The position numbers and the translations under genes are program-made. From Mariniflexile litorale (GTDB taxonomy: Bacteria > Bacteroidota > Bacteroidia > Flavobacteriales > Flavobacteriaceae): a stretch of DNA of 64,000 bases. Positions within the stretch are counted from its first letter, which is position 1, and each line of letters begins with the position of its first letter. This document shows positions 5,414 to 62,104 of the stretch, in pieces. A model generated the notes under the pieces. It was not told the DNA's origin, searched no databases, and worked only from the letters and a program-made list of their open reading frames with translations. Location of the stretch: contig NZ_CP155618.1 in NCBI RefSeq assembly GCF_031128465.2, positions 3,338,501 to 3,402,500 of the forward strand, given 5' to 3'.

Positions 5414-5676
5414 CCCTTAAACAAACATTAATTGAAATAAAATTAAAGTATTAAAAAAAATAGCAACAAAAAGAGAAACAAAATAATTCCCAATACAAAT
5501 TCTTAATGTGTTTTAAAACAGTACTATCATATTTAAACGTTTTATTAGGTGAAGAATGTTATTTAATATTTTATTCTAATATGGTGAAATGACTTATGAA
5601 CCTTAATGATGCTCACTTTTTTTCTTCAAGTTTGGTGTTTTACTGTAGATTTTTATAATATACTTGATAGAAAAAT

Positions 5677-5704
5677 AAAACCCCGACTTAAAATCGGGGT
5701 TTTT
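5677..5704. terminator. Bidirectional intrinsic terminator between hipT and susD
   Basis: A perfect 10-bp stem, AAAACCCCGA paired with TCGGGGTTTT around a 7-base loop, with A/T-rich tails on both sides. It can end transcripts arriving from hipT (plus) and from susD (minus). The remaining bases 5414-5676 contain no gene or signal I can support. Confidence 0.8.
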
Positions 5705-5714
5705 AACTTTTAAT

Positions 5715-42197: not shown

Positions 42198-42208
42198 TTT
42201 TTTTAATT

Positions 42209-43357: not shown

Positions 43358-43376
43358 TTTTAGTAGGTTATATTAT

Positions 43377-44726: not shown

Positions 44727-45671
44727 ATGATAACGAGACGAGACTTTATATCAAAAACAGCTTGTGCAGCAGGTTTTCTACCTTTTTCTGTTTTGCCTTA
44801 TCAGCAGTTTATGAGTGAGCAATCAGACAGCGGATTGGATATAAATATTTTCTCAAAGCATCTTCAATTTTTAGATTACCAAACTACAGGAGAAATGGCT
44901 GCAGAAATGGGTTTTTCAGGAGTAGATTTAACTGTACGGCCTAATGGGCATGTACTTCCAAAATTGGTAAAAACCGATCTCCCAAAAGCGGTTCATGCGA
45001 TTAAAGCAAGTGGTGTTAACTGTAAAATGATTACTACTAGTATCGAAAGTGTTGAAAACCCCTTAGATATCGATATTTTGGAAACTGCAGCTTCAGAACA
45101 TATTTCTTATTACAGAACGAATTGGTTTAAATATAAAGAAGAGGTATCCCTGCCGGATTCTTTATTATTCTATCAGAATGAAATAAAAAAGTTAGGTGAT
45201 TTAAACAAAAAACTAGGATTGATAGGTTGTTATCAAAATCATGCAGGGGTTAGTGTAGGCGCATCATATTGGGAAATACGAAAAATTCTAGAAACTGTAA
45301 ATTCTAAATATTTTGGAACACAATATGACATTCGTCATGCTATGGTAGAAGGAGGCTATTCTTGGGAAAACGGATTCCAGCTTTTACATCCAAATATAAA
45401 AGTTATTGTTTTAAAAGATTATAAATGGGGCAAAGTAAATGGGAAATGGGAAGCCATAAATGTGCCTATAGGAGAAGGTATGGTAGACTTTAATAAATAT
45501 TTTAAATTACTTAAGAAACATAATTTAAAACCTCCTGTATCATTGCATTTGGAATACGATTTAGGAGGAGCTGAACAAGGAGATCGAGAAATATCTGTTG
45601 ATAAAAAAGTAGTGTTCGATGCCATGAAATGCGACTTGAAAAAAGTAAAACAATTATGGGAAAATGCCTAG
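44727..45671 (+). CDS. Sugar phosphate isomerase/epimerase-like TIM-barrel protein with Tat signal
   Basis: A 314-residue protein of the xylose-isomerase-like TIM barrel (AP endonuclease 2) family: FSGVDLTVRPNGHV near the start, GCYQNHAG and TQYDIRHAMVEGG in the middle, and VSLHLEYDLGGAEQG near the end, with His/Glu/Asp residues of a metal site. A twin-arginine start (MITRRDFISKTA) and hydrophobic stretch point to Tat export. The first gene of alginate unit 1, it lies 47 bp before a PL6 lyase gene. The substrate is unknown; a uronate or aldonate epimerase is possible. Confidence 0.78.
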   Translation: MITRRDFISKTACAAGFLPFSVLPYQQFMSEQSDSGLDINIFSKHLQFLDYQTTGEMAAEMGFSGVDLTVRPNGHVLPKLVKTDLPKAVHAIKASGVNCKMITTSIESVENPLDIDILETAASEHISYYRTNWFKYKEEVSLPDSLLFYQNEIKKLGDLNKKLGLIGCYQNHAGVSVGASYWEIRKILETVNSKYFGTQYDIRHAMVEGGYSWENGFQLLHPNIKVIVLKDYKWGKVNGKWEAINVPIGEGMVDFNKYFKLLKKHNLKPPVSLHLEYDLGGAEQGDREISVDKKVVFDAMKCDLKKVKQLWENA

Positions 45672-45717: not shown

Positions 45718-48024
45718 ATGAAAAGATTTTTTTATACCTATAGCATGCTTATTTTTTTGGTGTCATGCCAATTAGTAGCTCAAACAAACAGTATAAAAGT
45801 TACTAACACAATTGAGCTAAACCGCGCTATTAAAAATAGCAAAGCTGGAGACCATATTGTGATGGCAAATGGTATCTGGAAGGACATTGAAATTAAGTTT
45901 TATGGGAATGGTACTAAAGAAAACCCTATTACGCTAACAGCAGAAGAAATTGGAAAAGTAACTATGGAAGGTATTTCTAATTTAAAACTAGGAGGCAGCT
46001 ATTTAATAGTAAACGGTTTATATTTCAAAAATGGATATACACCTTCTAAAAACGTTATTCAATTTAAAATAGATAACGATTTAATTGCTAATAACTGTAA
46101 AGTAACCCAGTGTGTAATTGAAGAGTTTACGCAACTAGACCGTGATATTAGCGACCATTGGGTAGAATTTTGGGGAAGGCATAATGAGTTAAGTCATTGT
46201 TACCTTACTGGAAAATCCAATTTTGGACCTACCTTAATGGTGCAGTTAAAAGGCAATGAGCATGTAAAAAATTACCATCAAATCATCAACAATCATTTCG
46301 GACCCCGACCTCGCAAAGGAGGTCCGCATGGAGAAACTATTCAAATAGGTGACAGTGGTACGTCTATGACGCCTTCACATACTTTTGTTGCAAACAATTT
46401 GTTTGAACGTTGTAACGGTGAAATTGAAATTATTTCAAGCAAATCTAATTTTAATGAATTTAGGAATAATGTGTTTTTTGAAAGTGAAGGTTCTTTGGTG
46501 TTAAGACATGGGAACTACGCAACCATAGATGGAAACATTTTTATAGGCAACGATAATTCAGATAATATTGGAGGTATTCGTGTTATTAATACAGGGCATT
46601 GGATTACTAATAACTATTTCTACAAAATAAAAGGTAACGAATTTAGGAGTGCTTTAGCAGTGATGAATGGTATTCCAAAATCACCTTTAAATAGATACAA
46701 TCAGGTTACTGATGTGGTTGTAGCTTACAATTCGTTTATAGATTGTAAATCGCCTTGGCAATTTAGTGTGGGATCTAATGTGAGTCAAAGTGATGTATTA
46801 CCAGCTACCGAAATTCGTTCGGCTAGACCAGAGCGTGTTGTGATTGCTAATAATTTCATCTACAACCAGATTGTAGATGAAAACCCGATAGTAAATTATG
46901 ATAAAGTTGATGGTGTGACTTTTAAAAACAACATCATAAACAATGAAAATAAAAGCGAGGTAAAACCAGAAGGTTTAGAAAATAAAACTGTTTCAATTGC
47001 TAAAAAGGGTAGTAACTTATTTGTTTCAAATGAAAACATACATGATATTTATGCTGGTTTCGATTTTGAAACGGTTACTAAAGATTTATTTGGAAATAGC
47101 AGAACGTCAAAAAATAATAACATTGGTGCCATTGTAAATCCTGTTAAAGAGAATGCCGTTTTAATTGATAAAACCAAATATGGTACCAATTGGTTTTTGT
47201 CTAACCACGTAAAAACCAAATCTAAAACGATCAACGTTTCAACATCTGAAGAGCTTATTAGTGCACTTGAAAAAGCTAATAAAAACGATGTGATTGCACT
47301 TAAAAATGGTGTCTATCAATTAAAATCTAGTTTAGTAATTAAAAAGCAAGTTTCAATTATATCTACTAAAAAGAATAAAAAAACGGAGTTGATTTTTTCT
47401 TCAGATAATACAGCTTTCGAGATGCTTCCTAAAGGAAACTTAATTCTTGAAAATGTTATTCTAACAGGAAATAAAACTCAAAACACCTTTAACACTTTAG
47501 ATAAAAACATGAGTAAGGCTTATAATTTATTCCTTGATAATGTTGAAATTAAAAATTTTAAATCTGTTTTAGAAGTGTCTAAAGGATCGTTTGCAGATAC
47601 TATTTTAGTTGCTAATTCTACTATTAAAAACTGCGAACGTGGTTTTATGCTGAATAAAGAAACCAACGATGGAGGTGATTATAATGCAGAATTTGTAACC
47701 ATTACCAACACTACTTTTGATAACATACAAGAAACAGTTTTAGATTATTATCGAGGAGGTTACGATGAATCTACCATAGGTGGGAATTTAACATTAACAA
47801 ACAACACCATCACCAATTCTGGAAAAGCTGAAAAAGACAGTATTTTAATAAAAAATAGAGGTATCGTAAATGTAGAGTTATCTAAAAATACTTTTAAGAA
47901 TAACTCCGTAAAGCTCATCGCTATTCTATGGGGTGAGAAGGGTCAGGAGCCAGGAGAAAACACCATTTTGAATTCAGGTAAAATAGAAGTGGTTCAAAAC
48001 TTGGAATTGAAGTTAATGTATTAA
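45718..48024 (+). CDS. PL6 family alginate lyase, two-domain
   Basis: A 768-residue parallel beta-helix lyase. The N-terminal PL6/chondroitinase-B domain (about 25-400) contains FGPRPRKGGPHGETIQIG, EIISSKSNFNEFRNN with the Bronsted-base Lys242, and VLRHGN with the catalytic Arg263. A second beta-helix domain occupies about 500-768 (NLILENVILTGN, YDESTIGGNL), as in two-domain PL6 enzymes such as AlyGC. It has a signal peptide whose LVSC could also be a lipobox (Cys17). PL6 enzymes cleave alginate, often polyG or polyMG, giving unsaturated products. Confidence 0.92.
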   Translation: MKRFFYTYSMLIFLVSCQLVAQTNSIKVTNTIELNRAIKNSKAGDHIVMANGIWKDIEIKFYGNGTKENPITLTAEEIGKVTMEGISNLKLGGSYLIVNGLYFKNGYTPSKNVIQFKIDNDLIANNCKVTQCVIEEFTQLDRDISDHWVEFWGRHNELSHCYLTGKSNFGPTLMVQLKGNEHVKNYHQIINNHFGPRPRKGGPHGETIQIGDSGTSMTPSHTFVANNLFERCNGEIEIISSKSNFNEFRNNVFFESEGSLVLRHGNYATIDGNIFIGNDNSDNIGGIRVINTGHWITNNYFYKIKGNEFRSALAVMNGIPKSPLNRYNQVTDVVVAYNSFIDCKSPWQFSVGSNVSQSDVLPATEIRSARPERVVIANNFIYNQIVDENPIVNYDKVDGVTFKNNIINNENKSEVKPEGLENKTVSIAKKGSNLFVSNENIHDIYAGFDFETVTKDLFGNSRTSKNNNIGAIVNPVKENAVLIDKTKYGTNWFLSNHVKTKSKTINVSTSEELISALEKANKNDVIALKNGVYQLKSSLVIKKQVSIISTKKNKKTELIFSSDNTAFEMLPKGNLILENVILTGNKTQNTFNTLDKNMSKAYNLFLDNVEIKNFKSVLEVSKGSFADTILVANSTIKNCERGFMLNKETNDGGDYNAEFVTITNTTFDNIQETVLDYYRGGYDESTIGGNLTLTNNTITNSGKAEKDSILIKNRGIVNVELSKNTFKNNSVKLIAILWGEKGQEPGENTILNSGKIEVVQNLELKLMY

Positions 48025-48033
48025 GTTTTTAAA

Positions 48034-50280
48034 ATGAATTGGCTAAAAAACGTTCTGATTATTATCTGTTTCATTTGTTTCCAAATAACGAATGCTCAAA
48101 CGATTCTTTCAAATGAAGTTATTGAAACAAATAAACTTGCAAAGTTATTAAAATCCGATGTGCAACAATCTTTAGGAGGTATTACTACTATTTCAAAAGG
48201 CAGATTAGCACAATATTTTCGTGAGAAATTTTCTGAACGTTATTTTTATAATTGGAAGCAGTTTAATACGCGATTTGAAGCATACAAATCCATTTACCCA
48301 AATGCAGAAATTGCACATACAGAAAATGCCTTAGATCACCTTTCAAAATTTGCTGATGCTACAACATGGAAATTACCATTTGATTATCAAAATGGAGCAC
48401 CTGTTAATGCTTATGCACTACGCCATTTGGCACGTCAACATAAAATGTTAGACATTGCTTTTTATTACAACTATCAAAATAAAAACGCAGACTATTTAAA
48501 CTATTTCAAAACCCAATTAAAATCATTAAACACGGCTTTATTGGCTCATGATTATGAAACCATTGAAGACGGTAATGGGGTTTATGAAGCGTTTAGGTCG
48601 GGATATCGTATTTTAAACTGGCTAGAAATTCATAATATGTTTTTGGGTGAAAATGGTTATTCTGATGAAGACCAGTTAGTAACCATCGCTACTTTATTAC
48701 AACACGGAGCACATTTGTATGAGACGAATGAGGCGTTTGTGCCTGGTAACCATCAAACAAGAGGCATGTCGGCATTGGCCATGCTTTCCATTCTGTTTAG
48801 AGATTTTAAAGGGACGAACAAATGGTATGAACGTGCCATGAACCAATTGGAAGCGCATTTAAATAAAGAAATAAATGAAGATGGGTTTCAGTTTGAACGT
48901 TCAGTACATTACCACATGAGCGACATTGATAATTATTACTATGTATATCAACTAGCAAAAAATAGTCAGATAAACGTGAGTGATTTCTGGGAAAGCAAGT
49001 TGAAATCATTATTTACAACCTTAACAAAAATTGCTTATCCAGATAAATCGGCTCCCGTATTCTCAGATGACACATCGCCGCCCTGGTCTGAAAAAAATGA
49101 TATAGCAGGTGCATTAACATTAGGGTATTTGTTATTTGAAGATCCTGAAATGGGCTATTTTGCTAATAACCATGTAGACCAAAAAATATTTTGGTATGTA
49201 AGCGATTCACAATTAAAAATGCTAAATAATATTGAATCGAAAACTCCACATTTTAAATCGGTTATATTTCCAACAACAGGATATTACATTATGAGGGAAG
49301 GTTGGAAAAACCATGACAAAGTGATGGTTATTTCTAACGGATTGGATAAGGACAAACCAGACCATCAACATGGCGACATGTTGGGTGTGCAGGCTATGGC
49401 AAATGGGCAGGTTATTTTGCCTAATTATCAGGTTCGGTATTCGCTTAAAGATTTAGAATTCTTTAAAAACTCCATGGTTAAAAATGTGGCTTTGGTTGAT
49501 AATGAGTTACAAGGAAAACAGTACACATCAAATCAAGGCGGTAGTGGTTTTGGTAAGTTTAAAGAATTACCCCAACCAAAAACGATTGCATGGAACAGTA
49601 CTGAAAATTTAGATGTTTATATAGGAAGTCATGATGGTTTTGAAAACATAAATGTAAAATACACAAGGCAAGTTATTTATTTAAAAGACGATTTTTGGAT
49701 TGTAAAAGATAATTTTAAATCTGATAAACCGCACACTTACAAGCAAATTTGGCAAGGACATTACAGTTTAGAAACAGCGCCAAATTTATTGCGTTCTACT
49801 TTTAATGATGGTTCTGGTAGTGATATTTATCAATTAATGGGTGTAGATTCTGTAGTTACTTCTGGTGCCAGAGGAAAGGAATGGGCAATAGTTTCAAAAA
49901 GGAATAAAACTGATTTCAACTTTATAACGGTTATTTTTCCTTTTGCTAAATATGATAGTAGGATTGATGAAGAAAAAAACGATCCTGAATTAAAAGGATG
50001 GAAATTAAATAATTCCAAATGGAAAACTGAAAGTAATCAAGCAACATCGTTAACCAAAGGAGATTGTACTGTATTCTTTTCAGTAAAAAAAATAGAATTA
50101 AGTAAGCTTAAAATAACGTTTTCAGAAGCAGCAGATGTGTTTGTAAAACGAGATGATAATACACTAACCATTCAATCTTTAAACACGAAATCATTACAGT
50201 TAGAGGTTTTAGGTGTGAAGGAGAAAGGTAAAGCCTCTTTAATTCCAGGAAACCAGTTAATTTTTACATTAAAACTATAG
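48034..50280 (+). CDS. Heparinase II/III-like polysaccharide lyase (likely alginate lyase)
   Basis: A 748-residue protein with a signal peptide (MNWLKNVLIIICFICFQITNAQ). It has an (alpha/alpha) toroid with PGNHQTRGMSALAML and QFERSVHYHMSDIDNYYYVY and, from about 400, the heparinase II/III beta-sandwich with DKPDHQHGDMLGVQAMANGQ and WIVKDNF. The His/Tyr/Asn candidates for catalysis are in these motifs. It is not close to the PL17 protein in the same locus and may belong to a PL39-like or unclassified group. It starts 10 bp after PL6 and abuts the next gene. Confidence 0.82.
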   Translation: MNWLKNVLIIICFICFQITNAQTILSNEVIETNKLAKLLKSDVQQSLGGITTISKGRLAQYFREKFSERYFYNWKQFNTRFEAYKSIYPNAEIAHTENALDHLSKFADATTWKLPFDYQNGAPVNAYALRHLARQHKMLDIAFYYNYQNKNADYLNYFKTQLKSLNTALLAHDYETIEDGNGVYEAFRSGYRILNWLEIHNMFLGENGYSDEDQLVTIATLLQHGAHLYETNEAFVPGNHQTRGMSALAMLSILFRDFKGTNKWYERAMNQLEAHLNKEINEDGFQFERSVHYHMSDIDNYYYVYQLAKNSQINVSDFWESKLKSLFTTLTKIAYPDKSAPVFSDDTSPPWSEKNDIAGALTLGYLLFEDPEMGYFANNHVDQKIFWYVSDSQLKMLNNIESKTPHFKSVIFPTTGYYIMREGWKNHDKVMVISNGLDKDKPDHQHGDMLGVQAMANGQVILPNYQVRYSLKDLEFFKNSMVKNVALVDNELQGKQYTSNQGGSGFGKFKELPQPKTIAWNSTENLDVYIGSHDGFENINVKYTRQVIYLKDDFWIVKDNFKSDKPHTYKQIWQGHYSLETAPNLLRSTFNDGSGSDIYQLMGVDSVVTSGARGKEWAIVSKRNKTDFNFITVIFPFAKYDSRIDEEKNDPELKGWKLNNSKWKTESNQATSLTKGDCTVFFSVKKIELSKLKITFSEAADVFVKRDDNTLTIQSLNTKSLQLEVLGVKEKGKASLIPGNQLIFTLKL

Positions 50281-52170
50281 ATGAATTTAAACAAGGTCAT
50301 ATTTATAATGGGAGTTTCAGGTGTTGGAAAAAGTACTATTGGTGCATTACTTTCTGCCGAATTGAATATACCATATTTTGATGGAGACGATTTTCATTCA
50401 GAAGAGAATATTTCAAAAATGTCTAACGGAATGGCCTTAAATGATGAGGATCGGCAAGGTTGGCTAAAAATATTAAATAACCTTGCGAAAGAGCAAATTA
50501 AAACGACTGGCTGTATTATAGTGTGTTCTGCCTTAAAGCAAAAATATCGCGATATTCTAAATCAAGATATTATAGAGAAAACAAATTGGGTTTATTTAAA
50601 GGGAAGTTTCCAGCAAATTAAAGAACGCATGGAATCGCGCTCAGGTCATTTCATGTCGCCGCAATTACTCGTTTCTCAATTTGAAACTTTAGAAGCACCT
50701 AAAAATGCTATTGATATAGATATAAGTTTAACCCCTTTAGAAATTATAAATACATTGAAAAACACATTGGTAGAAAAGTCTGAATTCGGATTATTTGGAT
50801 TGGGAGTTATGGGAAAAAGTTTAGCTAGAAATTTAGCTAGTAAGGGATTCAAACTCTCTATGTTTAACAGACATGTTGCAGGCGCAGAAGAAGATGTTGC
50901 AATTAATTTTAAAAATGAGTTTGAAGAATTAGCAACATCAAAAGCCTTTGATGATTTAGAGTTTTTTGTAAACTCGTTGCAAACTCCTCGGAAAATGATG
51001 CTCATGGTAAATGCTGGAAAAATAATAGATAGCGTTATTGAAGATCTATTACCATATTTATCCGAAGGTGATATTTTAATTGATGGAGGCAATTCCAATT
51101 ATAAAAACACCAAAGAACGTTGTGATTATTTAAAATCTAAAAACATCTATTTTATAGGTGCTGGCATATCGGGAGGTGAGGAAGGCGCCTTAAAAGGACC
51201 CTCTATTATGCCTGGAGGGAATAAAGAAATTTACAAACAAGTACAGCCATTTTTAGAAGTCATTGCAGCTAAAGACATGAATAATTTACCCTGTTGTACT
51301 TATATTGGAGAAGAAGGTAGCGGACATTTTGTAAAAATGGTACACAATGGTATCGAGTATGTTGAAATGCAATTATTAGCAGAAGTTTCAACCATTTTAA
51401 AAACCTTGGGAAATAATCCAGATCAAATAGCTGCTATTTTAGAATCATGGAAACCAAGCGTTAATAGTTATCTGCTGGAAATTACTATTGATATTTTTAG
51501 AAAGAAAGAAGAAAACGACTGGCTAGTTAATAAAATAATGGACAAAGCAGGTAATAAAGGCACCGGAAACTGGACGACCATTACTACTGCAGAATTGGGT
51601 GTTCCGAGTACTTTAATCGCATCGGCTTTGTTTGCACGTTATACTTCATTTTATAAAGAAGAAAGAGTAGTTGCTAATAAAAATTTTGGAGGAAATAGAA
51701 ACCTCAAACCATCATTAACTGGTGATGAAATTTTAAAAGCGTACCAATTTTCTAGAATTATTAACCATTACCAAGGATTAAAATTGATTTTTGATGCGGC
51801 AAAATCGTATCAATGGGATTTAAATTTAAGTGAGATAGCGCGTATCTGGACCAATGGGTGCATCATTAAATCTGATTTAATGTTCGACTTGGTGGATATT
51901 TTAAGAGAAGCTCACAATATTCTTACAAACCAAAAAATTGTTCACACATTAACTGAGTTGAAACCATCCGTAAACAAGGTGGTTTCAGAATGTGTTTTAG
52001 CAGAAATACCGATTTCATGTTTAAGTGAGTCTGTGAATTTTCTAAACATGTATTCAACTGCAAATTCTTCTGCAAATATCATTCAAGCTCAACGTGATTA
52101 TTTTGGTGCTCATACATACCAAAGAATAGATGACGATTCAGGAAAATTCCATCACAGCATTTGGAAATAA
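50281..52170 (+). CDS. Gluconokinase-6-phosphogluconate dehydrogenase fusion
   Basis: A 629-residue bifunctional protein. Residues 1-165 are a GntK-type gluconokinase with P-loop GVSGVGKST (11-19) and DGDDFHSEENISKMSNG. From about 168 a full decarboxylating 6-phosphogluconate dehydrogenase follows: GLFGLGVMGKSLARN, DGGNSNYKNT, GAGISGGEEGA, GHFVKMVHNGIEY and the C-terminal RDYFGAHTYQRID. The two steps turn gluconate to 6-phosphogluconate to ribulose 5-phosphate. One oddity is GTGNWT, with Asn430 where the phosphate-binding Lys (GTGKWT) usually stands. It is directly joined to the upstream lyase gene. Confidence 0.9.
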   Translation: MNLNKVIFIMGVSGVGKSTIGALLSAELNIPYFDGDDFHSEENISKMSNGMALNDEDRQGWLKILNNLAKEQIKTTGCIIVCSALKQKYRDILNQDIIEKTNWVYLKGSFQQIKERMESRSGHFMSPQLLVSQFETLEAPKNAIDIDISLTPLEIINTLKNTLVEKSEFGLFGLGVMGKSLARNLASKGFKLSMFNRHVAGAEEDVAINFKNEFEELATSKAFDDLEFFVNSLQTPRKMMLMVNAGKIIDSVIEDLLPYLSEGDILIDGGNSNYKNTKERCDYLKSKNIYFIGAGISGGEEGALKGPSIMPGGNKEIYKQVQPFLEVIAAKDMNNLPCCTYIGEEGSGHFVKMVHNGIEYVEMQLLAEVSTILKTLGNNPDQIAAILESWKPSVNSYLLEITIDIFRKKEENDWLVNKIMDKAGNKGTGNWTTITTAELGVPSTLIASALFARYTSFYKEERVVANKNFGGNRNLKPSLTGDEILKAYQFSRIINHYQGLKLIFDAAKSYQWDLNLSEIARIWTNGCIIKSDLMFDLVDILREAHNILTNQKIVHTLTELKPSVNKVVSECVLAEIPISCLSESVNFLNMYSTANSSANIIQAQRDYFGAHTYQRIDDDSGKFHHSIWK

Positions 52171-52209: not shown

Positions 52210-53484
52210 ATGCCAACACCACAAACTAAAAATTCATTTTTGAAAAAAATTATTGCGATTGTTTTGGGTTTTGGTCCGGGCATTTTTGCAATAGGTTATA
52301 CTATTGGTACAGGTAGTGTTACTTCCATGATTGTAGCAGGAAGTAAATTTGGTATGCAGCTGTTGTGGGTTCTTTTATTAAGCTGTTTTTTTTCAGGAGT
52401 GCTCATGTTTGCCTATGGTAATTATGCCTTAATTACAGGTGAAACGGCACTTTATGGTTTTAAAAAGCATTTAAAGTTTGGAAAGGTTTTAGCTATTTTA
52501 ATTATTGTTGGTATCACTTTTGGACAATGGAATTCACTCATGGGGATTTTAGGAATTTCTTCCAATATTATCTATGAAATTTTAGCCATTAATTATGAAG
52601 GTATCGTGGCATATAAATATGAAACTGTATTAGCTATAGCCGTTTTAGTAATTGTTATTTTTTATGCCCTCATGCTAGTCGGTAAATATACTTTCTTTGA
52701 AAAAATTCTGGTCATTTTCGTTACGTTGATGGGGTTGTCTTTTATTATTTCTCTCTTTTTTGTGCAACCACTTCCAATAGATGTTGTTAAAGGATTAATA
52801 CCAACCATTCCAGAAGTACCAGGAGGTAAAATGTTAGTAGCCGCTTTTGTTGGAACGACTATGGCTTCAGCAACGTTTTTATCAAGACCGCTTTTTGTAA
52901 AAGGAAAGGGATGGACAATCAAAAATTTAGATCAACAAAAGAAGGATTCAATTACCGCAGCCATATTAATTTTTATAATTAGCGGAACTATTATGGCAGT
53001 TGCCTGCGGAGCTTTGTATCATCAAGGTAAAGTTGTAACACAAGTGTTAGATATGGCGAATACGTTAGAGCCCGTAGCCGGTAATTTGGCGGTCAGCATT
53101 TTCTTTTTTGGAGCTTTAAGTGCGGGATTATCTTCTATTTTTCCATGCTTATTAATTGCACCTTTATTGGTAGCCGATTACCAATCGGGTGAATTAGATA
53201 CCAATTCTAAGCAATTTAGAATTATTACAGCCATTGCGTGTATGGTTGCTTTAATTGGCCCATTATTGGGAACTAATCCAATACAAATTCAAATTTTGTC
53301 GCAAGTTTTTAATGTGTTTGTTTTACCTATTGTGGTACTTGGAATCATCTTAATGGTCAATAATAAAAAAATAATGGATGGTTATAAAACGGGTATGGCA
53401 GTAAATTTAGGCTTATTTTCTGCATTTATTTTTTCCTGTATTATTTCATATAATGGTGTTTTAGGCTTGTTAGAGTATTTCTAA
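52210..53484 (+). CDS. NRAMP-family membrane transporter lacking metal-site residues
   Basis: A 424-residue protein with about eleven helices and the NRAMP fold. The first helix reads GPGIFAIGYTIGTGSV, where canonical members have DPGN at the position of residues 32-35. Helix 6 reads FVGTTMASATF (residues 218-221), where MPH is expected. All four usual metal-coordinating side chains are therefore missing. It follows the GntK-Gnd gene in alginate unit 1, so an organic acid or sugar acid substrate (for example gluconate or an alginate-derived uronate) is a reasonable guess. The fold is clear; the substrate is not known. Confidence 0.85.
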   Translation: MPTPQTKNSFLKKIIAIVLGFGPGIFAIGYTIGTGSVTSMIVAGSKFGMQLLWVLLLSCFFSGVLMFAYGNYALITGETALYGFKKHLKFGKVLAILIIVGITFGQWNSLMGILGISSNIIYEILAINYEGIVAYKYETVLAIAVLVIVIFYALMLVGKYTFFEKILVIFVTLMGLSFIISLFFVQPLPIDVVKGLIPTIPEVPGGKMLVAAFVGTTMASATFLSRPLFVKGKGWTIKNLDQQKKDSITAAILIFIISGTIMAVACGALYHQGKVVTQVLDMANTLEPVAGNLAVSIFFFGALSAGLSSIFPCLLIAPLLVADYQSGELDTNSKQFRIITAIACMVALIGPLLGTNPIQIQILSQVFNVFVLPIVVLGIILMVNNKKIMDGYKTGMAVNLGLFSAFIFSCIISYNGVLGLLEYF

Positions 53485-53584: not shown

Positions 53585-55924
53585 ATGTTTTCTCGAAAAT
53601 CACTGATAATAGTAGGACTTATTTTTTGTTGTTTAATTTCATGTAATACCAAGAAAAATAACGAAGGTTTAGTTACAAATATTTCAGAATTCAACGAAGC
53701 GGTATCAAAAGCAAAACCCGGGACAACAATAACTTTAGCCAATGGTGTATGGCATAATACTGAATTAATTTTTGAAGGTAAAGGAACTAAAGAAAATCCA
53801 ATTACACTTACAGTTGAAAATAAAGGACAAGTAACTTTAGAAGGTGCTTCGAACTTAAAAATAGCAGGGGAGTATTTAGTAGTTGAAAGTTTAGTTTTTA
53901 AAAACGGATTTACACCTACTAACGAAGTTATCTCTTTCAGGAAGAATGAGAATGAATTGGCAAACTATAGCCGCTTAACAGAATGTGTGATTGATAATTT
54001 TAGCAATCCGCAACGTGACGAACAAGATTATTGGATAGCTATTTATGGAAAAAACAATAGAATAGATCATAACCATATTTCAGGAAAAAGAAACTTAGGA
54101 GTGACCCTGATTGTTGGTTTAGATACCGAAGCGAGTAGAGAAAATTACCATCAAATAGACCATAATTATTTTGGACCACGACCCACTTTTGGAAATAATG
54201 GGGGTGAAACACTAAGAATTGGCACGAGCCACCATGCTTTAGAGAATTCCAATACGTTAGTGGAATCAAATTACTTTGATAGATGTAATGGCGAGCATGA
54301 AATTATTTCAAACAAATCCTGTAAAAACACCTTTAAATATAATACGTTTTTTGAATGTACAGGAACTTTAACCATGCGTCATGGTAATGAAACTATGGTA
54401 GATGGTAACATGTTTATCGGAAACGGAAAACCAAGCACTGGAGGAGTACGGGTAATAAACGAGAAACAAACAGTTATAAATAATTATCACATAGGATTAA
54501 CAGGATACCGCTTTAGAGGGGCGTTTGTTATGATGAATGGAGTGCCAAACTCCCCCCCAAACCGTTATGTACAAGTTACAGATGCCGTTGTAAAAAATAA
54601 TACCTTCATTAATTGCGATAATATTCAATTATGTGCTGGAAGTGATGCTGAACGAAGTGCCCCACCTATTAATTCTGAAATAGCTGATAATATTTTTTAT
54701 CACGAATCAAAATCTAATTTATTTACAGTTTATGATGATATAAGTGGAGTTACTTTTAAAGATAACATTTCAGGCTTAAATATTGAAACAGGTATTTCTA
54801 ACGGTTTTGGAAAAGCAGATATCAAATTAGTAAAAAATGAAGCCGGATATTTAATCCCAGAATCTAATGGTATACCATATAAAGTAGTTATTAGCTCTCG
54901 TATTGCTACTAAAGAAAATACAGGAATAAGCTGGTATTCTAAATCAGATAATAACATGGCTTTAAATTCTGGAACAACTATTAAAGTAAATCCAGGATTA
55001 AACACTTTGTTCGATGTGGTTCAAAATTCAGAAGCAGGTGATATTATTGAACTTTCATCAGGTACATCATATTATTTAACCAAAACAATCAATATAAAGC
55101 ATCCATTGTCATTTACAACTGGGGGAAATGAAAATGCAGTTATTTTCTTTGAAAAAATGGCCGCTTTTGAAATACAAAATAACGGGAGTCTGTCTTTAGA
55201 AGGTTTAACCTTCGATGGAGCCAAATCTCCTGATTATGCAGGGAATTCTGTTATCAGAACAAGTAAGAACTCTATGATTAATAACTACAAATTGTTTATT
55301 AGCAATTGTAGTTTTAAAAACTTAATAGTGAACCATTCGTTTGATGTGGTTAAAGTATCTAAAAATACTTTTGCAGACACTTTAAGTATTCAAAATTCAA
55401 CATTCAATAATATTACAGGGCATATTATAGCCTTGGATAAGGAAACTGATGATATTGGGGCCTACAATGCCGAATATGTTATCTTGAAAAATAATGTTTT
55501 CAAAGATGTTCAAGGTGCCGCTTTAAGACTTTATAGAGGAGGTACAGACGAAAGTACTTTTGGACCATTTTTAGAATTACAACATAATGTGTTTGATAAT
55601 GTTGGACATGGAAAACGAAATAAATATAATGCGTCTGTTTCGTTATATGGGGTTCAGGAAAATGATATTTCAAACAATATTTTCGTCAATTCGAAAGCCA
55701 TAAATATGTATTTGGTAGTTGGAGAGCCTATCGTTAACGTCTTAAGCAATAATCTGTTTAATTCGGATAACCTTGTTGTTACAGGCGAGCAAAAATATAC
55801 TGTTAAGGATTTATGGAATTTAAATCCTGAATTTATAGAAGGTACTTATCAATTGCATGATAAATCACCTTTAAAAGGTAAGGGATCAGATGGTTTGGAC
55901 CTTGGTTTAATTTCTAAAAAATAA
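53585..55924 (+). CDS. PL6 family alginate lyase, two-domain lipoprotein
   Basis: A 779-residue lipoprotein with lipobox LISC (Cys20). The N-terminal PL6 domain has FGPRPTFGNNGGETLRIG, EIISNKSCKNTFKYN with Lys244, and MRHGNETMVDGN with Arg265. A second beta-helix follows (NGSLSLEGLTFDGA, GGTDESTFGPF). It is a paralogue of the first PL6 but differs in anchoring and probably in block preference. As a surface lipoprotein it would cut alginate next to the SusC/D import complex. First gene of unit 2, 2 bp before the PL17 gene. Confidence 0.92.
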   Translation: MFSRKSLIIVGLIFCCLISCNTKKNNEGLVTNISEFNEAVSKAKPGTTITLANGVWHNTELIFEGKGTKENPITLTVENKGQVTLEGASNLKIAGEYLVVESLVFKNGFTPTNEVISFRKNENELANYSRLTECVIDNFSNPQRDEQDYWIAIYGKNNRIDHNHISGKRNLGVTLIVGLDTEASRENYHQIDHNYFGPRPTFGNNGGETLRIGTSHHALENSNTLVESNYFDRCNGEHEIISNKSCKNTFKYNTFFECTGTLTMRHGNETMVDGNMFIGNGKPSTGGVRVINEKQTVINNYHIGLTGYRFRGAFVMMNGVPNSPPNRYVQVTDAVVKNNTFINCDNIQLCAGSDAERSAPPINSEIADNIFYHESKSNLFTVYDDISGVTFKDNISGLNIETGISNGFGKADIKLVKNEAGYLIPESNGIPYKVVISSRIATKENTGISWYSKSDNNMALNSGTTIKVNPGLNTLFDVVQNSEAGDIIELSSGTSYYLTKTINIKHPLSFTTGGNENAVIFFEKMAAFEIQNNGSLSLEGLTFDGAKSPDYAGNSVIRTSKNSMINNYKLFISNCSFKNLIVNHSFDVVKVSKNTFADTLSIQNSTFNNITGHIIALDKETDDIGAYNAEYVILKNNVFKDVQGAALRLYRGGTDESTFGPFLELQHNVFDNVGHGKRNKYNASVSLYGVQENDISNNIFVNSKAINMYLVVGEPIVNVLSNNLFNSDNLVVTGEQKYTVKDLWNLNPEFIEGTYQLHDKSPLKGKGSDGLDLGLISKK

Positions 55925-55926
55925 AT

Positions 55927-58218
55927 ATGTTTTTAAAAAATAAGATACAACTGGTTTTAGTTATTTTAATATTCACTGTGATTTCTAGCAAAGCACAAAC
56001 AAGTCCAATTTCTAACGTAAAAAAATCAAACAAACAAGAACATCCAAGCTTAATATTAACAAAAGTAGGTGTTGAAAAAATAAAAGCTCAATTAGGTACG
56101 GTACCTCTGTTCGATGAAACTTTAGCCAAAGTAAAAGCCGAAGTAGATACTGAGATTTCAAATGGTATTGAAGTACCTATTCCAAAAGATTTTTCTGGTG
56201 GTTATACACATGAACGACACAAAAAAAACTTTCTAATATTGCAAAAGGCAGGTGTTTTATATCAGATTTTAGATGATGAAACTTATGCTAAATACGTAAA
56301 GGATATGCTTTTGGAATATGCTAGAATCTATCCAACACTTCCTGTGCACCCACAAACAAGATCGTATGCACGAGGCAAATTATTTTGGCAATGCTTAAAC
56401 GATTCTAACTGGTTAGTATATGTGAGTCAAGCTTATGATTGTGTATATAATTATTTAAGCAAAAAAGAACGCGAACATTTAGAAAAAGACCTTTTTAAAC
56501 CTTTTGCAAATTTTATTTCAGTTGGAAACCCACAGTTTTTTAACCGTGTGCATAACCACAGTACTTGGGGAAATGTAGCAGTTGGCATGATTGCATTGGT
56601 TATGGAGGATGATAAGTTATTAGAAACCGCTTTATATGGATTAAAAACAGATAATATAGATCCTAATGCCAAAGATAATGATGGTGGTTTCATAAAAAAG
56701 AAGGGTCAAAAAGTGGGATTTCTAGCCAATTTAGAAGAACCTTTTTCACCAGACGGCTATTATACAGAAGGCCCATATTACCAACGCTATGCTATGTATC
56801 CATTTTTGGTTTTTGCTGAAGCCTTACAAAATGTAAAACCAGAACTTAAAATTTTTGAATATAAAAAAGGCGTACTACTAAAATCGATAAATACTCTATT
56901 GAACTTAACGGATGCCGATGGTCATTTTTTCCCATTAAATGATGGGCAAAAAGGAATGTCATATTATTCTAGAGAATTAGTTTCGGCGGTAGATATTGGC
57001 TACTATTTTGGAGGCAATAAAACAGATCTATTATCCATTGCGAAAGATCAAGGCGAAGTGTTGTTAGATGATACAGGTTTATCTGTAGCTCTTGGAATCC
57101 GAGATGGATTAGAAACACCATTCATTAAAAAGTCCATTGATTTATCTGACGGAAAAAATGGTGATGAAGGAGGGGTTGCCATCTTAAGAGCAAATAGTAC
57201 AAAAAGAGAGCTTAGTTTGGTGATGAAATATTCGGCTCAAGGCTTAAGTCATGGGCATTACGACAAATTATCTTTTTCTTTATACGAAGGAGGGAATGAA
57301 GTGATTCAAGATTATGGAATGACACGTTTTGTAAATATACAACAAAAGGGTGGCGGTAATTATTTAAAAGAGAATACCACATGGGCAAAACAAACTATTG
57401 CTCATAATACTATAAATCAAGATGAAACATCGCATTTTGGTGGTGAATTTGAAACGGGAAGTTTGCATCATTCTGAAAAATATGTGTTTGATGTTTCTAA
57501 TCCCAATCTGCAAATTATAAGTGCTAAAGAAGAAAATGCGTACCCAGGCACTAAAATGCATAGAACTATGGTGCTTATAAAAGAGGCGTCTTTCGAGAAC
57601 CCATATCTTCTTGATATTATTAAAATTAATGCAGAACATGAGCATCAATATGATTTACCTTATTATTATTTAGGGCAATTAATGACCACAAATTTTGATT
57701 ATATAATACCTGAAACTTTAAAACCTTTAGGAACTAAAAATGGGTATCAACATTTATGGAATGAGGCTGAAGGCAAATCGGAAACAAGTAATGCAAAAGT
57801 TTCTTGGTTCAATAAACAACGTTTTTATACACTTACATCGTTAGTTTCAAATGAAGATGACTTAATATTAGTAAGAACAGGGGCTAACGATCCCGATTTT
57901 AACCTAAGAAGAGATCCTGGGTTTATCATCAGAAAAAAAAATAACAAAGACACTTACTTCATCAGCTTGATAGAATCGCACGGACATTACGATCCCGTTA
58001 GTGAAATAGCCACCAATGCATTTAGTAACATCCTAAATTTAAATATGATATTCAGTAATGATGAATATTTAGTAATAAGTATTGAAACTAAAAATGAACA
58101 AAAAAGCTTGTTTTTGTTTTCAATAAAAGACAATTTAAAAACTAGTAAACATCAAATAAAAACACAAGATAAAACCTATGAATGGGTGGGTGCTTATCAA
58201 TTAATTAAAAATTATTAA
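55927..58218 (+). CDS. PL17 oligoalginate lyase (Alg17C-like)
   Basis: A 763-residue exo-type lyase with a signal peptide (VISSKAQ). It matches Alg17C of Saccharophagus: HPSLILTKVGVEKI, GGYTHERHKKNFLILQKAG, RVHNHSTWGN with Asn210 and His211, PDGYYTEGPYYQRYAMYPF, and SHGHYDKLSF with Tyr445. These are the neutraliser and base/acid residues of PL17. The product is the unsaturated monouronate that becomes DEH. Probably periplasmic. It is followed 11 bp later by kdgF, the next step. Confidence 0.95.
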   Translation: MFLKNKIQLVLVILIFTVISSKAQTSPISNVKKSNKQEHPSLILTKVGVEKIKAQLGTVPLFDETLAKVKAEVDTEISNGIEVPIPKDFSGGYTHERHKKNFLILQKAGVLYQILDDETYAKYVKDMLLEYARIYPTLPVHPQTRSYARGKLFWQCLNDSNWLVYVSQAYDCVYNYLSKKEREHLEKDLFKPFANFISVGNPQFFNRVHNHSTWGNVAVGMIALVMEDDKLLETALYGLKTDNIDPNAKDNDGGFIKKKGQKVGFLANLEEPFSPDGYYTEGPYYQRYAMYPFLVFAEALQNVKPELKIFEYKKGVLLKSINTLLNLTDADGHFFPLNDGQKGMSYYSRELVSAVDIGYYFGGNKTDLLSIAKDQGEVLLDDTGLSVALGIRDGLETPFIKKSIDLSDGKNGDEGGVAILRANSTKRELSLVMKYSAQGLSHGHYDKLSFSLYEGGNEVIQDYGMTRFVNIQQKGGGNYLKENTTWAKQTIAHNTINQDETSHFGGEFETGSLHHSEKYVFDVSNPNLQIISAKEENAYPGTKMHRTMVLIKEASFENPYLLDIIKINAEHEHQYDLPYYYLGQLMTTNFDYIIPETLKPLGTKNGYQHLWNEAEGKSETSNAKVSWFNKQRFYTLTSLVSNEDDLILVRTGANDPDFNLRRDPGFIIRKKNNKDTYFISLIESHGHYDPVSEIATNAFSNILNLNMIFSNDEYLVISIETKNEQKSLFLFSIKDNLKTSKHQIKTQDKTYEWVGAYQLIKNY

Positions 58219-58229
58219 AATAACATAAT

Positions 58230-58577
58230 ATGAAAACTTTTGGAGCAAGTAAAGAATTTTTAATGGGAGACGAGATTCAATGGGAAACTGTTGGAGCTGG
58301 TGTTCAAAGAAAAATAATGGGATATGATGACAAAATCATGCTAGTAGATGTGAATTTTGCTGAAGGTGGTGTAGGAACAATGCATGAACATTACCATTCG
58401 CAAGTTACGTATGTAGTAAGCGGCGAATTTGAGCTTACTATAGGTGATAAAACAAAACTTATGAAAGCAGGTGATGCCTTTTATATACCACCACATGTTA
58501 TGCATGGTGCCATTTGCAAAAAAGCAGGAAAATTAATTGATGTTTTTAGTCCAATAAGGGAAGATTTTATGCAGTAA
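58230..58577 (+). CDS. kdgF: KdgF-like cupin (unsaturated uronate linearisation)
   Basis: A 115-residue single-domain cupin. The metal site MHEHYHSQVTYVVSGEFE gives His52, His54 and Gln58, with His92 in PPHVMHGA, as in KdgF. KdgF speeds conversion of cyclic 4,5-unsaturated monouronates from alginate or pectin to the linear ketone form used by the cytoplasmic pathway. It has no signal peptide. It ends unit 2, downstream of PL17, which makes its substrate. Confidence 0.9.
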   Translation: MKTFGASKEFLMGDEIQWETVGAGVQRKIMGYDDKIMLVDVNFAEGGVGTMHEHYHSQVTYVVSGEFELTIGDKTKLMKAGDAFYIPPHVMHGAICKKAGKLIDVFSPIREDFMQ

Positions 58578-58970: not shown

Positions 58971-61900
58971 ATGAATTTAAAAAACAAGTTGGCTCTTATT
59001 GCAATATTGCTTTTCAATGTTTCAGTATTTGCACAAAACATCACTGTAAAAGGTCAAGTTGTGTCGGCAACAGATAATATACCAATTCCTGGTGTAAATG
59101 TTATTGTTGCCAATACAACTACAGGTACTACTACCGATTTTGATGGAAACTATCAAATTCAAGTGAACAGTGGAGATGTATTACAATTCTCTTATATTGG
59201 ATTTGTTACCCAAGTTCAAGAAATTAAAGATCAAAAAACTATTAATGTTTCTTTAAAAGAAGATCTAGCAACTTTAGATGAAGTTGTTGTGATTGGTTAT
59301 GGTACTCAAAAGAAAAGTCATACTACAGGTTCAATTTCTAAAGTAGTAAATGATGATTTAGATCAAATAGCAATGGCAAGGGTAGATGATGCATTGATAG
59401 GGCAAGTTTCTGGGGTTAATATTCAAGCAACTGATGGTGAAGCAGGAGCAGCGCCTACTATAAGTATTAGAGGTGTGGGATCTATGGCCGGTGATTCAAC
59501 GCCCTTAGTAGTTGTTGATGGTGTGATTGTAGGTTCTGATTTTTTAGGGTCTTTAAATATGAACGATGTAGAATCGTTTGAGATTTTAAAAGATGCTGCT
59601 TCTTCAGCGATTTACGGTTCAAAAGGTGCTAATGGTATTATCATGATTACTACAAAAAGTGGTAAAGAAGGAAAAACAAAATTTAGTTATGGTACGTTTA
59701 CAGGTTATAAAACAGCAAGACATAGTGATGCTTATACGTTTTCAATAGCAGAGACTGCAGCAGCAGAAATGGCAGAAAATGGTGTTCTTTCTAATCAAAC
59801 GTTGTATAAAACTTTAATTGGAGTAGACCGTTCATGGCAAGATGTGATTTTCGATGGAGGTCTAATAAAAAATCATTCTTTAAGTGTAAGAGGTGGAAAC
59901 GATAAAACAAAGTTTAGTGTGGGTGCTAATTACCTACATGATGAAGGTGTTTTATTGACTGACGATTATAAAAAGTATGGGATAAGCCTTAAAGTGGATA
60001 CGAAGGTTAATGAAAAATTCTCGTTTGGAGCAAACCTTTCACCATCTTATACCAACAGAAGGCGTTTTGACGGTTCTACCCATGATATATTAAGACAAAC
60101 CAACTGGTTGCCACTGTATCATGATGCGAATACTATACGATTTGTAGATAGAAATGCATATCCAGACGTTCAAGTTGGAGATTATGCACTTCAATATCAT
60201 TTTGATAATTATGATTTATTTGGTGATGGAACAACATCTGTTGATATTAGCAATACATCTAATACAAACCCTGCGGCAAAAGTTTTAGAGCGAAATCGTA
60301 AGGATAAAAAGTTTAAACTTTATGGAAGTATATATGGTAAATATCAAATTATTGATGGTTTAAATTTTAGAACAACATTATCTGGATCTTTTCAAGATAC
60401 TAAAAGAATTAGATGGCAAGGTGTATTATCTAGTAGAAATGGAGCTTCAGGAGCTGAGATGAATGAAATTAGTCAAAGAGAAATTTATATGATTTCTGAT
60501 AATTTCTTGTCTTATGATAAATCTTTTGGAAAACATGATTTAAGTATTCTTGGGGGTTTTTCAGCAGAAAAAAGAGATGCATTTTTCTCAACTATTACAG
60601 GTACAGGATATACATCAGATGCTGTACAGCAAATAACAAATGCTACATTAATTGCTAATGCAGATGCTTTTGAATGGCAAAAAACAGGACTTTCTTATGT
60701 CTCAAGGTTAAACTATGCTTATGCAGATAAGTATTTGGCCTCTTTCAGTTTTAGAAGAGATGGTAGTTCTATTTTTGGTAAGGATTTTAAATATGGTAAT
60801 TTTCCAGCTGCATCTATTGGATGGAATATAGGTAAAGAGGACTTTTTACAAGATAGTGATGTTGTAAGTTCTTTAAAGCTTAGAGCTAGTTATGGTGTAA
60901 CTGGTAATGACATCCTTAACACGGGTAGTGTTGATCCTGATTCAAGTAGTAGTACAAGTTCTTTAAGTACAGGTAATGTTTTAGTTGATTATTATCCATC
61001 ATTAGGTTTATTGGGAGCGACAACAGCAGTAGTTGGAGGAAACTTGGTTGCTGGATTTAACCCCATAAATGTTGCAAATGCAGAATTACAATGGGAACGA
61101 TTAGTAGAAATTAACCCTGGTATCGACTTTGGGTTTTTTAACAATAGAATTTCAGGGTCTGTAGATTGGTATCAAAGAACGAGTGACCAATTACTCTTGA
61201 ATAATCCAATTTCAGTAACAACAGGTTTTAACGCAGCTCTAGTAAATCTTGGAGAGGTGAGAAATGAAGGTATTGAAGTTGAATTTAGAACCAGAAATAT
61301 TACTAACGAAAAATTTAGATGGTCTTCAACAATTATTGCCACGTCAAACAAAAACACGTTAGTTGATTTTGCTGATTCAAATGGACAAATTACCAATGTA
61401 GATGAGAAAAGAGCAGCAGAGTGGATTAACTTAGAAGGGCAACCCATATCCACTTTCTATGGTTGGGTAGTTGATAGAGATATACCTTTAGAATATATTA
61501 ATAATCCATACCATCCAGTAGGAGGAGAGGCACAAGATGTGTATGTGAAAGATTTAAATGGAGATGGTATTATTGATGATGAAGATAAAGCAGCTCTTGG
61601 GGATCCATATCCTAACTTAATATGGAGTTTTACTAACGAATTTAAAATAGGAGCTTTCGATTTTAGTTTTATGTTTCAAGGTTCTCACGGTGCTGAGGTT
61701 AGAAATATGGGAGACCAATATATTTTCAACCATTTTAATAGTAGTCAAGATTTTAATCCATCTACAACACCTGATCAGCAATTCATTAAAGAAAAAATAT
61801 TTACTGACGATATCATTCAAGATGCATCTTATATCGCTTTAAGAAATGTAAATATAGGATATGAATTTCCTAAAGATATGATTTCAAAATATGGTATTTC

Positions 61901-62072
61901 TGGTTTGCGAATTTATGCTTCTGGACAAAATTTAATGTACAAAACAGCAGATGATTATACTGGTTTTAACCCAGAGTCTATAGACAGAACAAGCCCAACT
62001 TCATATGGATATCAAAGAGGAGGATCACCTATTTATAGTACAATATCTTTAGGACTAAATCTTGATTTTTAA
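58971..62072 (+). CDS. susC: SusC/RagA family TonB-dependent receptor (alginate oligomers)
   Basis: This 1033-residue receptor has a signal peptide (ALIAILLFNVSVFAQ), a carboxypeptidase-regulatory-like domain (VKGQVVSATDNIPIPGVNVI), the TonB box/plug start LDEVVVIGYGTQKKS, the plug signature YGSKGANGIIMITTKSG, and a long barrel. It imports alginate oligosaccharides, inferred from neighbouring PL6, PL17 and KdgF genes. It shares little with the first SusC in the window beyond family motifs. It is first in unit 3 and is followed by susD. Confidence 0.94.
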   Translation: MNLKNKLALIAILLFNVSVFAQNITVKGQVVSATDNIPIPGVNVIVANTTTGTTTDFDGNYQIQVNSGDVLQFSYIGFVTQVQEIKDQKTINVSLKEDLATLDEVVVIGYGTQKKSHTTGSISKVVNDDLDQIAMARVDDALIGQVSGVNIQATDGEAGAAPTISIRGVGSMAGDSTPLVVVDGVIVGSDFLGSLNMNDVESFEILKDAASSAIYGSKGANGIIMITTKSGKEGKTKFSYGTFTGYKTARHSDAYTFSIAETAAAEMAENGVLSNQTLYKTLIGVDRSWQDVIFDGGLIKNHSLSVRGGNDKTKFSVGANYLHDEGVLLTDDYKKYGISLKVDTKVNEKFSFGANLSPSYTNRRRFDGSTHDILRQTNWLPLYHDANTIRFVDRNAYPDVQVGDYALQYHFDNYDLFGDGTTSVDISNTSNTNPAAKVLERNRKDKKFKLYGSIYGKYQIIDGLNFRTTLSGSFQDTKRIRWQGVLSSRNGASGAEMNEISQREIYMISDNFLSYDKSFGKHDLSILGGFSAEKRDAFFSTITGTGYTSDAVQQITNATLIANADAFEWQKTGLSYVSRLNYAYADKYLASFSFRRDGSSIFGKDFKYGNFPAASIGWNIGKEDFLQDSDVVSSLKLRASYGVTGNDILNTGSVDPDSSSSTSSLSTGNVLVDYYPSLGLLGATTAVVGGNLVAGFNPINVANAELQWERLVEINPGIDFGFFNNRISGSVDWYQRTSDQLLLNNPISVTTGFNAALVNLGEVRNEGIEVEFRTRNITNEKFRWSSTIIATSNKNTLVDFADSNGQITNVDEKRAAEWINLEGQPISTFYGWVVDRDIPLEYINNPYHPVGGEAQDVYVKDLNGDGIIDDEDKAALGDPYPNLIWSFTNEFKIGAFDFSFMFQGSHGAEVRNMGDQYIFNHFNSSQDFNPSTTPDQQFIKEKIFTDDIIQDASYIALRNVNIGYEFPKDMISKYGISGLRIYASGQNLMYKTADDYTGFNPESIDRTSPTSYGYQRGGSPIYSTISLGLNLDF

Positions 62073-62104
62073 TTAAAATGGTTAATAAATTAATAAAATA
62101 TATT

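Follow-up and report, generated by a model that had tools for sequence, protein, structure and literature searches.

What is a membrane protein with the fold of metal transporters doing inside an alginate operon? The question is raised by the gene at positions 52210 to 53484 of a 64,000-nucleotide stretch of the Mariniflexile litorale genome (NZ_CP155618.1; this whole stretch is referred to as the window). A sequence-only reading had seen in its product an Nramp fold stripped of its metal ligands and had proposed a carrier for a sugar acid that could fill an otherwise vacant import step for the alginate monomer. We find that most of the observations behind this idea hold, that the vacancy does not, and that the gene context points to a sugar acid as the probable substrate.

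The Nramp-related gene and its operon

The gene at 52210-53484 is a genuine Nramp-like gene. Its product matches the Pfam Nramp family (PF01566) with 210.7 bits (cut-off 29.8; E 4e-62) over profile positions 1 to 355 of 357 and thus at full length; this is the sole Pfam family matched at E 1e-3, and the same search gives no match to GntP (PF02447). Among NCBIfam models, the protein exceeds the cut-off of Nramp_1, "Nramp family divalent metal transporter" (80.7 vs. 50 bits), and stays far under that of the MntH subfamily (85 vs. 430 bits). Genes like this one are therefore likely to be named as metal carriers. By sequence (phmmer), the closest solved structure is 7qia (EleNRMT; E 2e-18), followed by 10ky (Bacteroides fragilis Nramp, BfraNramp) and then DraNramp. 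A predicted fold (mean pLDDT 65.1, pTM 0.65) has DraNramp, BfraNramp, EleNRMT, and YcsG as its first PDB matches, and the best chains reach TM-scores of 0.71 to 0.74 by query length (0.74 for EleNRMT and 0.73 for DraNramp, with the YcsG model 9a52 also among the best). Because all first matches are of this kind, the protein has the Nramp-family (LeuT-type) topology, in line with the retained fold that had been claimed; the model is usable for topology alone, and binding-site geometry is not taken from it because pLDDT falls below 50 across much of TM1 and TM6.

The gene lies within a run of same-strand genes that comprises the following features in the window:

44727..45671, plus strand: xylose-isomerase-like TIM barrel protein at the 5' end of the run (PF01261)
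45718..48024, plus strand: PL6-type lyase (Pfam chondroitinase B, PF14592)
48034..50280, plus strand: heparinase II/III-type protein with an apparent signal peptide, judged by eye (PF16889, PF07940)
50281..52170, plus strand: gluconokinase (GntK) fused to 6-phosphogluconate dehydrogenase (Gnd), 629 amino acids (TIGR01313, TIGR00873, and NF006765, all over cut-off)
52210..53484, plus strand: Nramp-related (PF01566) membrane protein, 424 amino acids (open reading frame, Pfam, alignments, fold model)
53585..55924, plus strand: second PL6-type protein with a lipoprotein-like N-terminus, judged by eye (PF14592)
55927..58218, plus strand: PL17-type oligoalginate lyase with an apparent signal peptide, judged by eye (PF05426, PF07940; NF042990 at E 3e-198, under cut-off)
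58230..58577, plus strand: cupin, putatively of KdgF type (sequence cluster shared with L042:5799-6173, Pfam cupin)
58971..62072, plus strand: SusC-type TonB-dependent outer-membrane transporter (TIGR04056)
62078..63544, plus strand: SusD-type lipoprotein (PF07980, PF14322)

The two PF14592 proteins (45718..48024 and 53585..55924) are presumably of class PL6. The GntK-Gnd fusion ends 39 bases 5' of the Nramp-related gene. With two PL6-type proteins, a PL17-type and a KdgF-type protein, a SusC/D pair, and this fusion, the neighbors for alginate cleavage and aldonate catabolism that had been read from the sequence are indeed there. On the minus strand (41166-44375), galT, galK, and a GntR/periplasmic-binding-domain regulator directly adjoin the operon, and a DUF285 repeat protein is encoded at 31215-32270.

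The same-strand run continues past base 64000, and the next 5 kb (L033) hold a PL7 lyase, a GntR-FCD regulator, an MFS_1 transporter, and an SDR. The MFS_1 gene would occupy window positions 66462-67745, 2.5 kb beyond the window end. The absence of an MFS carrier, on which the idea of a vacant step had been built, is thus true of the 64-kb window only and an artifact of its edge. Given this gene and the joint occurrence of MFS and Nramp-related carriers in 12 further loci (see below), the Nramp-related protein is not the sole candidate for alginate monomers. The window operon has no SDR gene within 8 kb of the Nramp-related gene; the nearest one seen lies beyond the MFS gene.

Metal-site residues and the GTGS branch

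Both phmmer alignments to solved structures and an alignment of 94 rows place the D-P-G-N motif of canonical Nramps on G33-T34-G35-S36 of the protein and their M-P-H motif on A219-S220-A221. The two altered stretches, established by alignments and column counts, are:

52306..52323, plus strand: TM1 motif G33-T-G-S-V-T38 replacing D-P-G-N (Asp to Gly, Asn to Ser)
52852..52887, plus strand: TM6 stretch G215-T-T-M-A-S-A ... R226, with M-P-H lost and Arg replacing His

In the 94-row alignment, the protein has none of the Asp, Asn, Met, His, and TM3 Glu residues of canonical Nramps, the last being Ile113. The reported loss of the four metal ligands therefore stands, as does the reported TM6 string, in which A-S-A within TMASA replaces M-P-H; the TM1 string needs correction to GTGS, since the IGTG given originally is one residue off. 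The columns of Asp, Pro, Asn, Met, His, and TM3 Glu are invariant in all 23 canonical rows. By contrast, the group to which the protein belongs (the GTGS group) has G, T, and S at positions 33, 34, and 36 and V, I, or L at the TM3 Glu position in 41 of 41 rows. The column of R226 holds Arg in all of these 41 rows and His in all canonical (23/23) and PxpT-type (27/27) rows; R226 may lie in the substrate path or serve as an anion anchor.

A tree of homologues with a list of their gene neighborhoods had been suggested as a check on the sugar-acid idea. In the 94-row tree, the 41 GTGS rows form one side of a branch with an SH-aLRT value of 100, apart from PxpT-type proteins, NRMTs, and canonical Nramps; this tree comes from a quick search with no bootstrap, has its root set on E. 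coli MntH, and includes some long branches. One very long row, OWN2, attaches to the base of the GTGS group at a support of 89. Before tree building and column counts, 18 GTGS-group rows (mostly close copies) were removed and the C-terminal extensions of long canonical rows were trimmed at 460 residues. Alignment A2 takes 46 of the 80 named loci described below, with L138 (stop codon) and L143 left out. The source genome encodes a second, very divergent PF01566 match (49.5 bits; L002:1501-2565, corresponding to G000:C1:917967-919031) with neither the canonical nor the GTGS motif.

By itself, the loss of DPGN and MPH is weak evidence for a non-metal role. It is general among "Nramp-related proteins" without metal and proton motifs, described in a 2026 preprint as a large, diverse, and paraphyletic group (PMC12873925), and for one PF01566 protein, YcsG, there are reports both of a requirement in 5-oxoproline use and of Mn2+ import (PMC13274462, PMC10448178). 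Decay of one lone copy as the cause of motif loss is ruled out by the existence of 80 homologues of 75% to 86% identity.

Gene neighborhoods across genomes

These 80 homologues are the best of 575 confirmed relatives in named genomes. Up to 8 kb were read on each side, marker genes were assigned by BLAST to genes of the window and its relatives at 1e-12, and this named set overlaps with the set from 299 genomes of the family described further below. Homologues without any association with carbohydrate loci had been named as what would speak against a sugar-acid carrier, and this objection does not apply: PL6-, PL7-, PL17-, heparinase-, or KdgF-type genes lie within 8 kb in 73 of the 80 named loci, GntK and/or Gnd in 68, and an SDR in 59. 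GntK/Gnd is located directly upstream on the same strand in 67 loci, and 58 of these 67 gaps measure 3 to 45 bases. Most named loci come from Flavobacteriaceae genera, and Carboxylicivirga, Ancylomarina, and Labilibaculum, which we take to be members of other families, are represented too. It is this gene context (alginate locus and gluconokinase pairing) that is the new part of the finding, the motif loss being already known.

Seven named loci have no lyase or KdgF markers (L088, L117, L118, L138, L139, L148, and L151). Kinase, carrier, and SDR are still kept in L117, L118, and L138, and L151 keeps MFS, SDR, KdgK-, PFK-, and KdgA-type genes; the carrier copies of L088 (adjoining a DHFR gene), L139, and L148 lie away from kinase and lyases. 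In L138, which comes from Wenyingzhuangia, the carrier gene (5542-6813) is broken by an in-frame stop. The SDR next to the carrier in L118 (L118:9338-10099) matches the DEH reductases 4w7i and 4tkl among many SDRs, of which others score higher. An MFS gene and the Nramp-related gene occur together in 12 other fetched loci, some of which possibly belong to one and the same genome (L046-L052, L114, L133, L140, L151, and L192), and the Nramp-related gene directly follows KdgK-, PFK-, and/or KDPG-aldolase-type genes in L046-L048, L050, L051, L151, and L192. With an MFS carrier in the M. litorale locus and in these 12, the proposal that the protein fills a vacant DEH-import step is not supported.

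A homologue of 55% to 100% identity is found in 39 of the 299 genomes of the family, along with at least 26 further matches at 33% to 40%. PL17 genes (E 1e-100) are present in 32 of these 39 genomes vs. 29 of the 260 others (Fisher 1.3e-19) and gluconokinase genes (E 1e-10) in 39 of 39 vs. 88 of 260 (Fisher 6e-17), though these values overstate independence and are too small as probabilities because the genomes are related and the GntP pattern follows related lineages. The 29 genomes with PL17 and no close homologue imply that the carrier is not needed for alginate use generally. One genome without a close carrier homologue contains a gluconokinase-like stretch with many stops approximately 8.5 kb from its PL17 gene (G071:C1:2740169-2740444), which may be the decayed remnant of a kinase gene.

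What stands beside the kinase when the carrier does not was read from 20 unpaired gluconokinase loci that were chosen by hand and not at random. A membrane protein of a single sequence cluster directly adjoins the kinase in 11 of them, and all 6 of these 11 proteins that were scanned are GntP permeases (437 to 485 bits); neither GntP nor an Nramp-related carrier is found beside the kinase in the other 9. In L217, one of these 9, the kinase fusion adjoins a PL7-type lyase. The kinase has a gluconolactonase-like neighbor (SGL) in L225 by Pfam match and in L223, L229, L230, and L234 by cluster membership. When the 39 genomes that encode a close homologue are divided by the distance between kinase and carrier, 13 of the 17 with the two genes no more than 3.5 kb apart lack GntP, and each of the 22 remaining genomes has it. 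The 4 exceptions with GntP despite a kinase-carrier pair are the source genome (G000), G034, G185, and G249, of which the last two have GntP and carrier in one locus. GntP and the Nramp-related carrier share a locus in the divergent members L052 and L053 (59% and 55% identity), so the two are not plain substitutes there.

More distant members were read in two sets, the first with 19 loci of 33% to 40% identity (L054-L072; 21 of the 26 listed matches in this range were fetched) and the second with 20 loci (L175-L194), namely 17 from outside the family, one 73% member within it, and two of the 33% to 40% set. Genes of a strict sugar list lie within 5 kb of the carrier in 17 of 19 and 15 of 20 loci, respectively, vs. 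0 of 20 PxpT-type control loci, and genes of a loose list in 18 of 19 and 18 of 20 vs. 1 of 20, all measured with a yardstick that was partly drawn from the GTGS group's own neighborhoods and is biased toward this group. L065, L178, and L191 have no gene of the sugar list within 5 kb. Nine loci (L054-L062) stand out by NagA and NagB types within 5 kb (both in 7, NagA only in 1, and NagB only in 1). In their recurrent cluster (e.g., L055:5597-12536), the GTGS carrier is accompanied by oxidoreductases of Gfo/Idh/MocA type, a NagA-type deacetylase, and a NagB-type isomerase, to which L055 adds a NanA-like lyase. The cluster looks like an amino-sugar path; in NCBIfam, the nagA score of 223 bits narrowly misses the cut-off of 225.65, and the nagB score falls far short of the cut-off for nagB. 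Elsewhere, the carrier is adjoined by UxaC, an SDR, and a UxuA-type gene that scores under cut-off (L068 and L069), by KdgK- and KDPG-aldolase-type genes (L067), or, in other distant loci, by GH2, GH20, GH84, or SSF genes.

The 20 control loci (L195-L214) are matches of 25% to 30% identity in Flavobacteriaceae, and all encode PxpT-type proteins (IGPG ... VPYN). PxpA, PxpB, and PxpC genes follow the carrier in L195, the one control locus that was typed, and judged on gene size no pxpABC-like trio follows in L204. The best NCBIfam match of the L195 carrier is MntH, under cut-off. The strict count of these controls rejects the notion that placement in sugar loci is common to any Nramp relative in such genomes. 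The viral contigs searched contain no relative of the protein, and the 30 listed of 40 plasmid records comprise one match at 35%, the rest being at 23% to 28% and mostly from halophilic archaea. The 35% match is unannotated (CP054241.1:807175-808418) and lies on an 834-kb record that is labeled as an E. coli plasmid and may include DNA from another source through an error of labeling or assembly.

Proposed function and known systems

We propose that the protein is probably an inner-membrane carrier with the Nramp fold and a replaced metal site that imports a small sugar acid from the periplasm for the upstream GntK-Gnd; transport, its direction, and its substrate are what we infer from the observations above. 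Candidate substrates are D-gluconate or saturated L-guluronate from alginate chain ends. Lyases release DEH together with a saturated uronate that stems from the non-reducing end of each chain, and both are expected in the periplasm because the PL17-type enzyme has an apparent signal peptide. DEH would be taken in by the MFS carrier of the same locus, so that the Nramp-related carrier would sit beside and not in place of a DEH carrier. Stereochemistry, derived here by reversing the chain, makes C1-reduced L-guluronate identical to D-gluconate and C1-reduced D-mannuronate identical to D-mannonate, and SDR-family DEH reductases act on the same C1 aldehyde. A putative reductase would thus convert L-guluronate to D-gluconate, which GntK and Gnd would take via 6-phosphogluconate to ribulose-5-phosphate, with the carrier as the gate of this path. 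Import of gluconate as by GntP is a simpler reading that fits the gene order equally well; it leaves the loss of GntP unexplained, which mildly favors a substrate that GntP does not take.

The proposed role as a sugar-acid carrier is well supported by gene context. Its genes are strongly and specifically linked to carbohydrate loci, and an aldonate or uronate is suggested by the GntP that other loci have at this site next to gluconokinase. In addition, growth on a carboxylate, 5-oxoproline, requires another PF01566 protein, PxpT (PMC13274462). Points that count against it are the window operon without an SDR in 8 kb vs. the many relatives with one, the kinase loci without either carrier (9/20), the genomes with PL17 and no close homologue, the carrier copies away from kinase and lyases, the loci that hold GntP and the carrier together, the Mn2+ report on YcsG, and the presence of GntP in the source genome as well; furthermore, little of the alginate carbon should reside in saturated ends.

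It seems unlikely that the protein is instead a divalent-cation carrier (for Mg2+, Mn2+, or Ca2+) whose rebuilt site serves metal needs of the alginate locus. Membership in PF01566, the exceeded Nramp_1 cut-off, and a top solved match that is described as an Mg2+/Mn2+ transporter (EleNRMT; PMC8806188) agree with such a role, as do the report of YcsG as an Mn2+ importer (PMC10448178) and the fact that NRMTs carry metal despite a changed site. However, none of Asp, Asn, Met, His, and the TM3 Glu is retained, the DxxG motif of NRMTs is not matched either, and the neighbors across the group (kinases, NagA/NagB, UxaC, and GH20) share a sugar theme and apparently no one metal enzyme; GntP as occupant of the same place beside the kinase also argues against a metal.

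Import of DEH or unsaturated alginate oligomers across the inner membrane would suit the alginate-lyase- or KdgF-type genes of the 73 named loci and the position directly after KdgK-, PFK-, and/or KDPG-aldolase-type genes in some loci. This is nevertheless quite improbable with genes for both an MFS carrier and an SDR shortly past the window end in this locus, an MFS gene accompanying the carrier in the 12 loci listed above (some maybe from the same genome), and GntK/Gnd as a usual direct neighbor that suits gluconate rather than DEH. MFS is also the named inner-membrane partner of SusC/D in alginate use by Flavobacteriaceae (PMC13390454). Most doubtful of all is a protein that is no nutrient importer, whether it exports a pathway product or acts as a sensor that transports nothing: copies beside unrelated genes would allow for an occurrence outside the pathway, but the full-length protein with its conserved core positions, a fold model like working transporters, and a position where other genomes have an importer make this highly improbable.

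Extending the proposed sugar-acid carrier to its relatives, we tentatively suggest, as a possibility that we rate below the role of the protein itself, that the GTGS group is a carbohydrate-carrier branch across several Bacteroidota families, marked by a TM6 Arg at the position of the His of metal transporters. Its substrates would be aldonates or saturated uronates for members in alginate loci, glucuronate for those next to UxaC-UxuA, and amino sugars for those next to NagA-NagB, and in alginate loci it would form, together with GntK-Gnd and SDR, an unrecognized side path from L-guluronate via D-gluconate to ribulose-5-phosphate. If the group carries sugar acids, names as metal carriers are wrong across marine and other Bacteroidota, alginate use has an extra inner-membrane step, and 5-oxoproline is joined by a second kind of organic substrate for the SLC11/Nramp fold. 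Gly for Asp and Arg for His may then offer a clean comparison for the interconversion of metal and carboxylate sites in one fold.

Among known systems, canonical Nramp/MntH/SLC11 transporters share Pfam family and fold with the protein but differ at the four metal-ligand positions and the TM3 Glu. EleNRMT, its top solved relative by sequence and among the top by fold, is likewise devoid of DPGN and MPH and carries Mg2+ and Mn2+; however, the site motif given for NRMTs (DxxG - TxxA/T; PMC8806188) keeps the TM1 Asp where the protein has Gly33, with Ser36 at the fourth position, and NRMTs fall on another branch. A possible relative is an "Nramp, metal-ion transporter" that a figure legend on alginate clusters of Alteromonas sp. 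76-1 lists under this name alone (PMC6431674). Full-text searches of a largely open-access literature listed no paper with a sugar-acid role assigned to an Nramp-related protein. GntP belongs to an unrelated family and stands beside GntK or GntK-Gnd in related genomes, i.e., in the place of the carrier in alginate loci.

PxpT and YcsG are of the same Pfam family, and on the PxpT side the operon is one for a small carboxylate. Corynebacterium glutamicum cannot do without its PxpT when it grows on 5-oxoproline, and YcsG of B. subtilis, 50% identical to PxpT, is cited as needed for 5-oxoproline use (PMC13274462); a report by another group has YcsG raising cellular Mn2+ (PMC10448178). PxpT-type rows, tied to this name through the pxpABC genes of L195, likewise replace the metal-binding Asp by Gly, and their TM6 reads GTT (27/27). 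Yet their TM1 reads G-P-G-T (with S in one row) against T34 and S36 of the protein, their TM6 keeps the His where the GTGS group has Arg, and the GTGS group is a separate branch. Nor are pxpABC genes next to the gene at 52210-53484, whose neighbors are those for alginate and gluconate.
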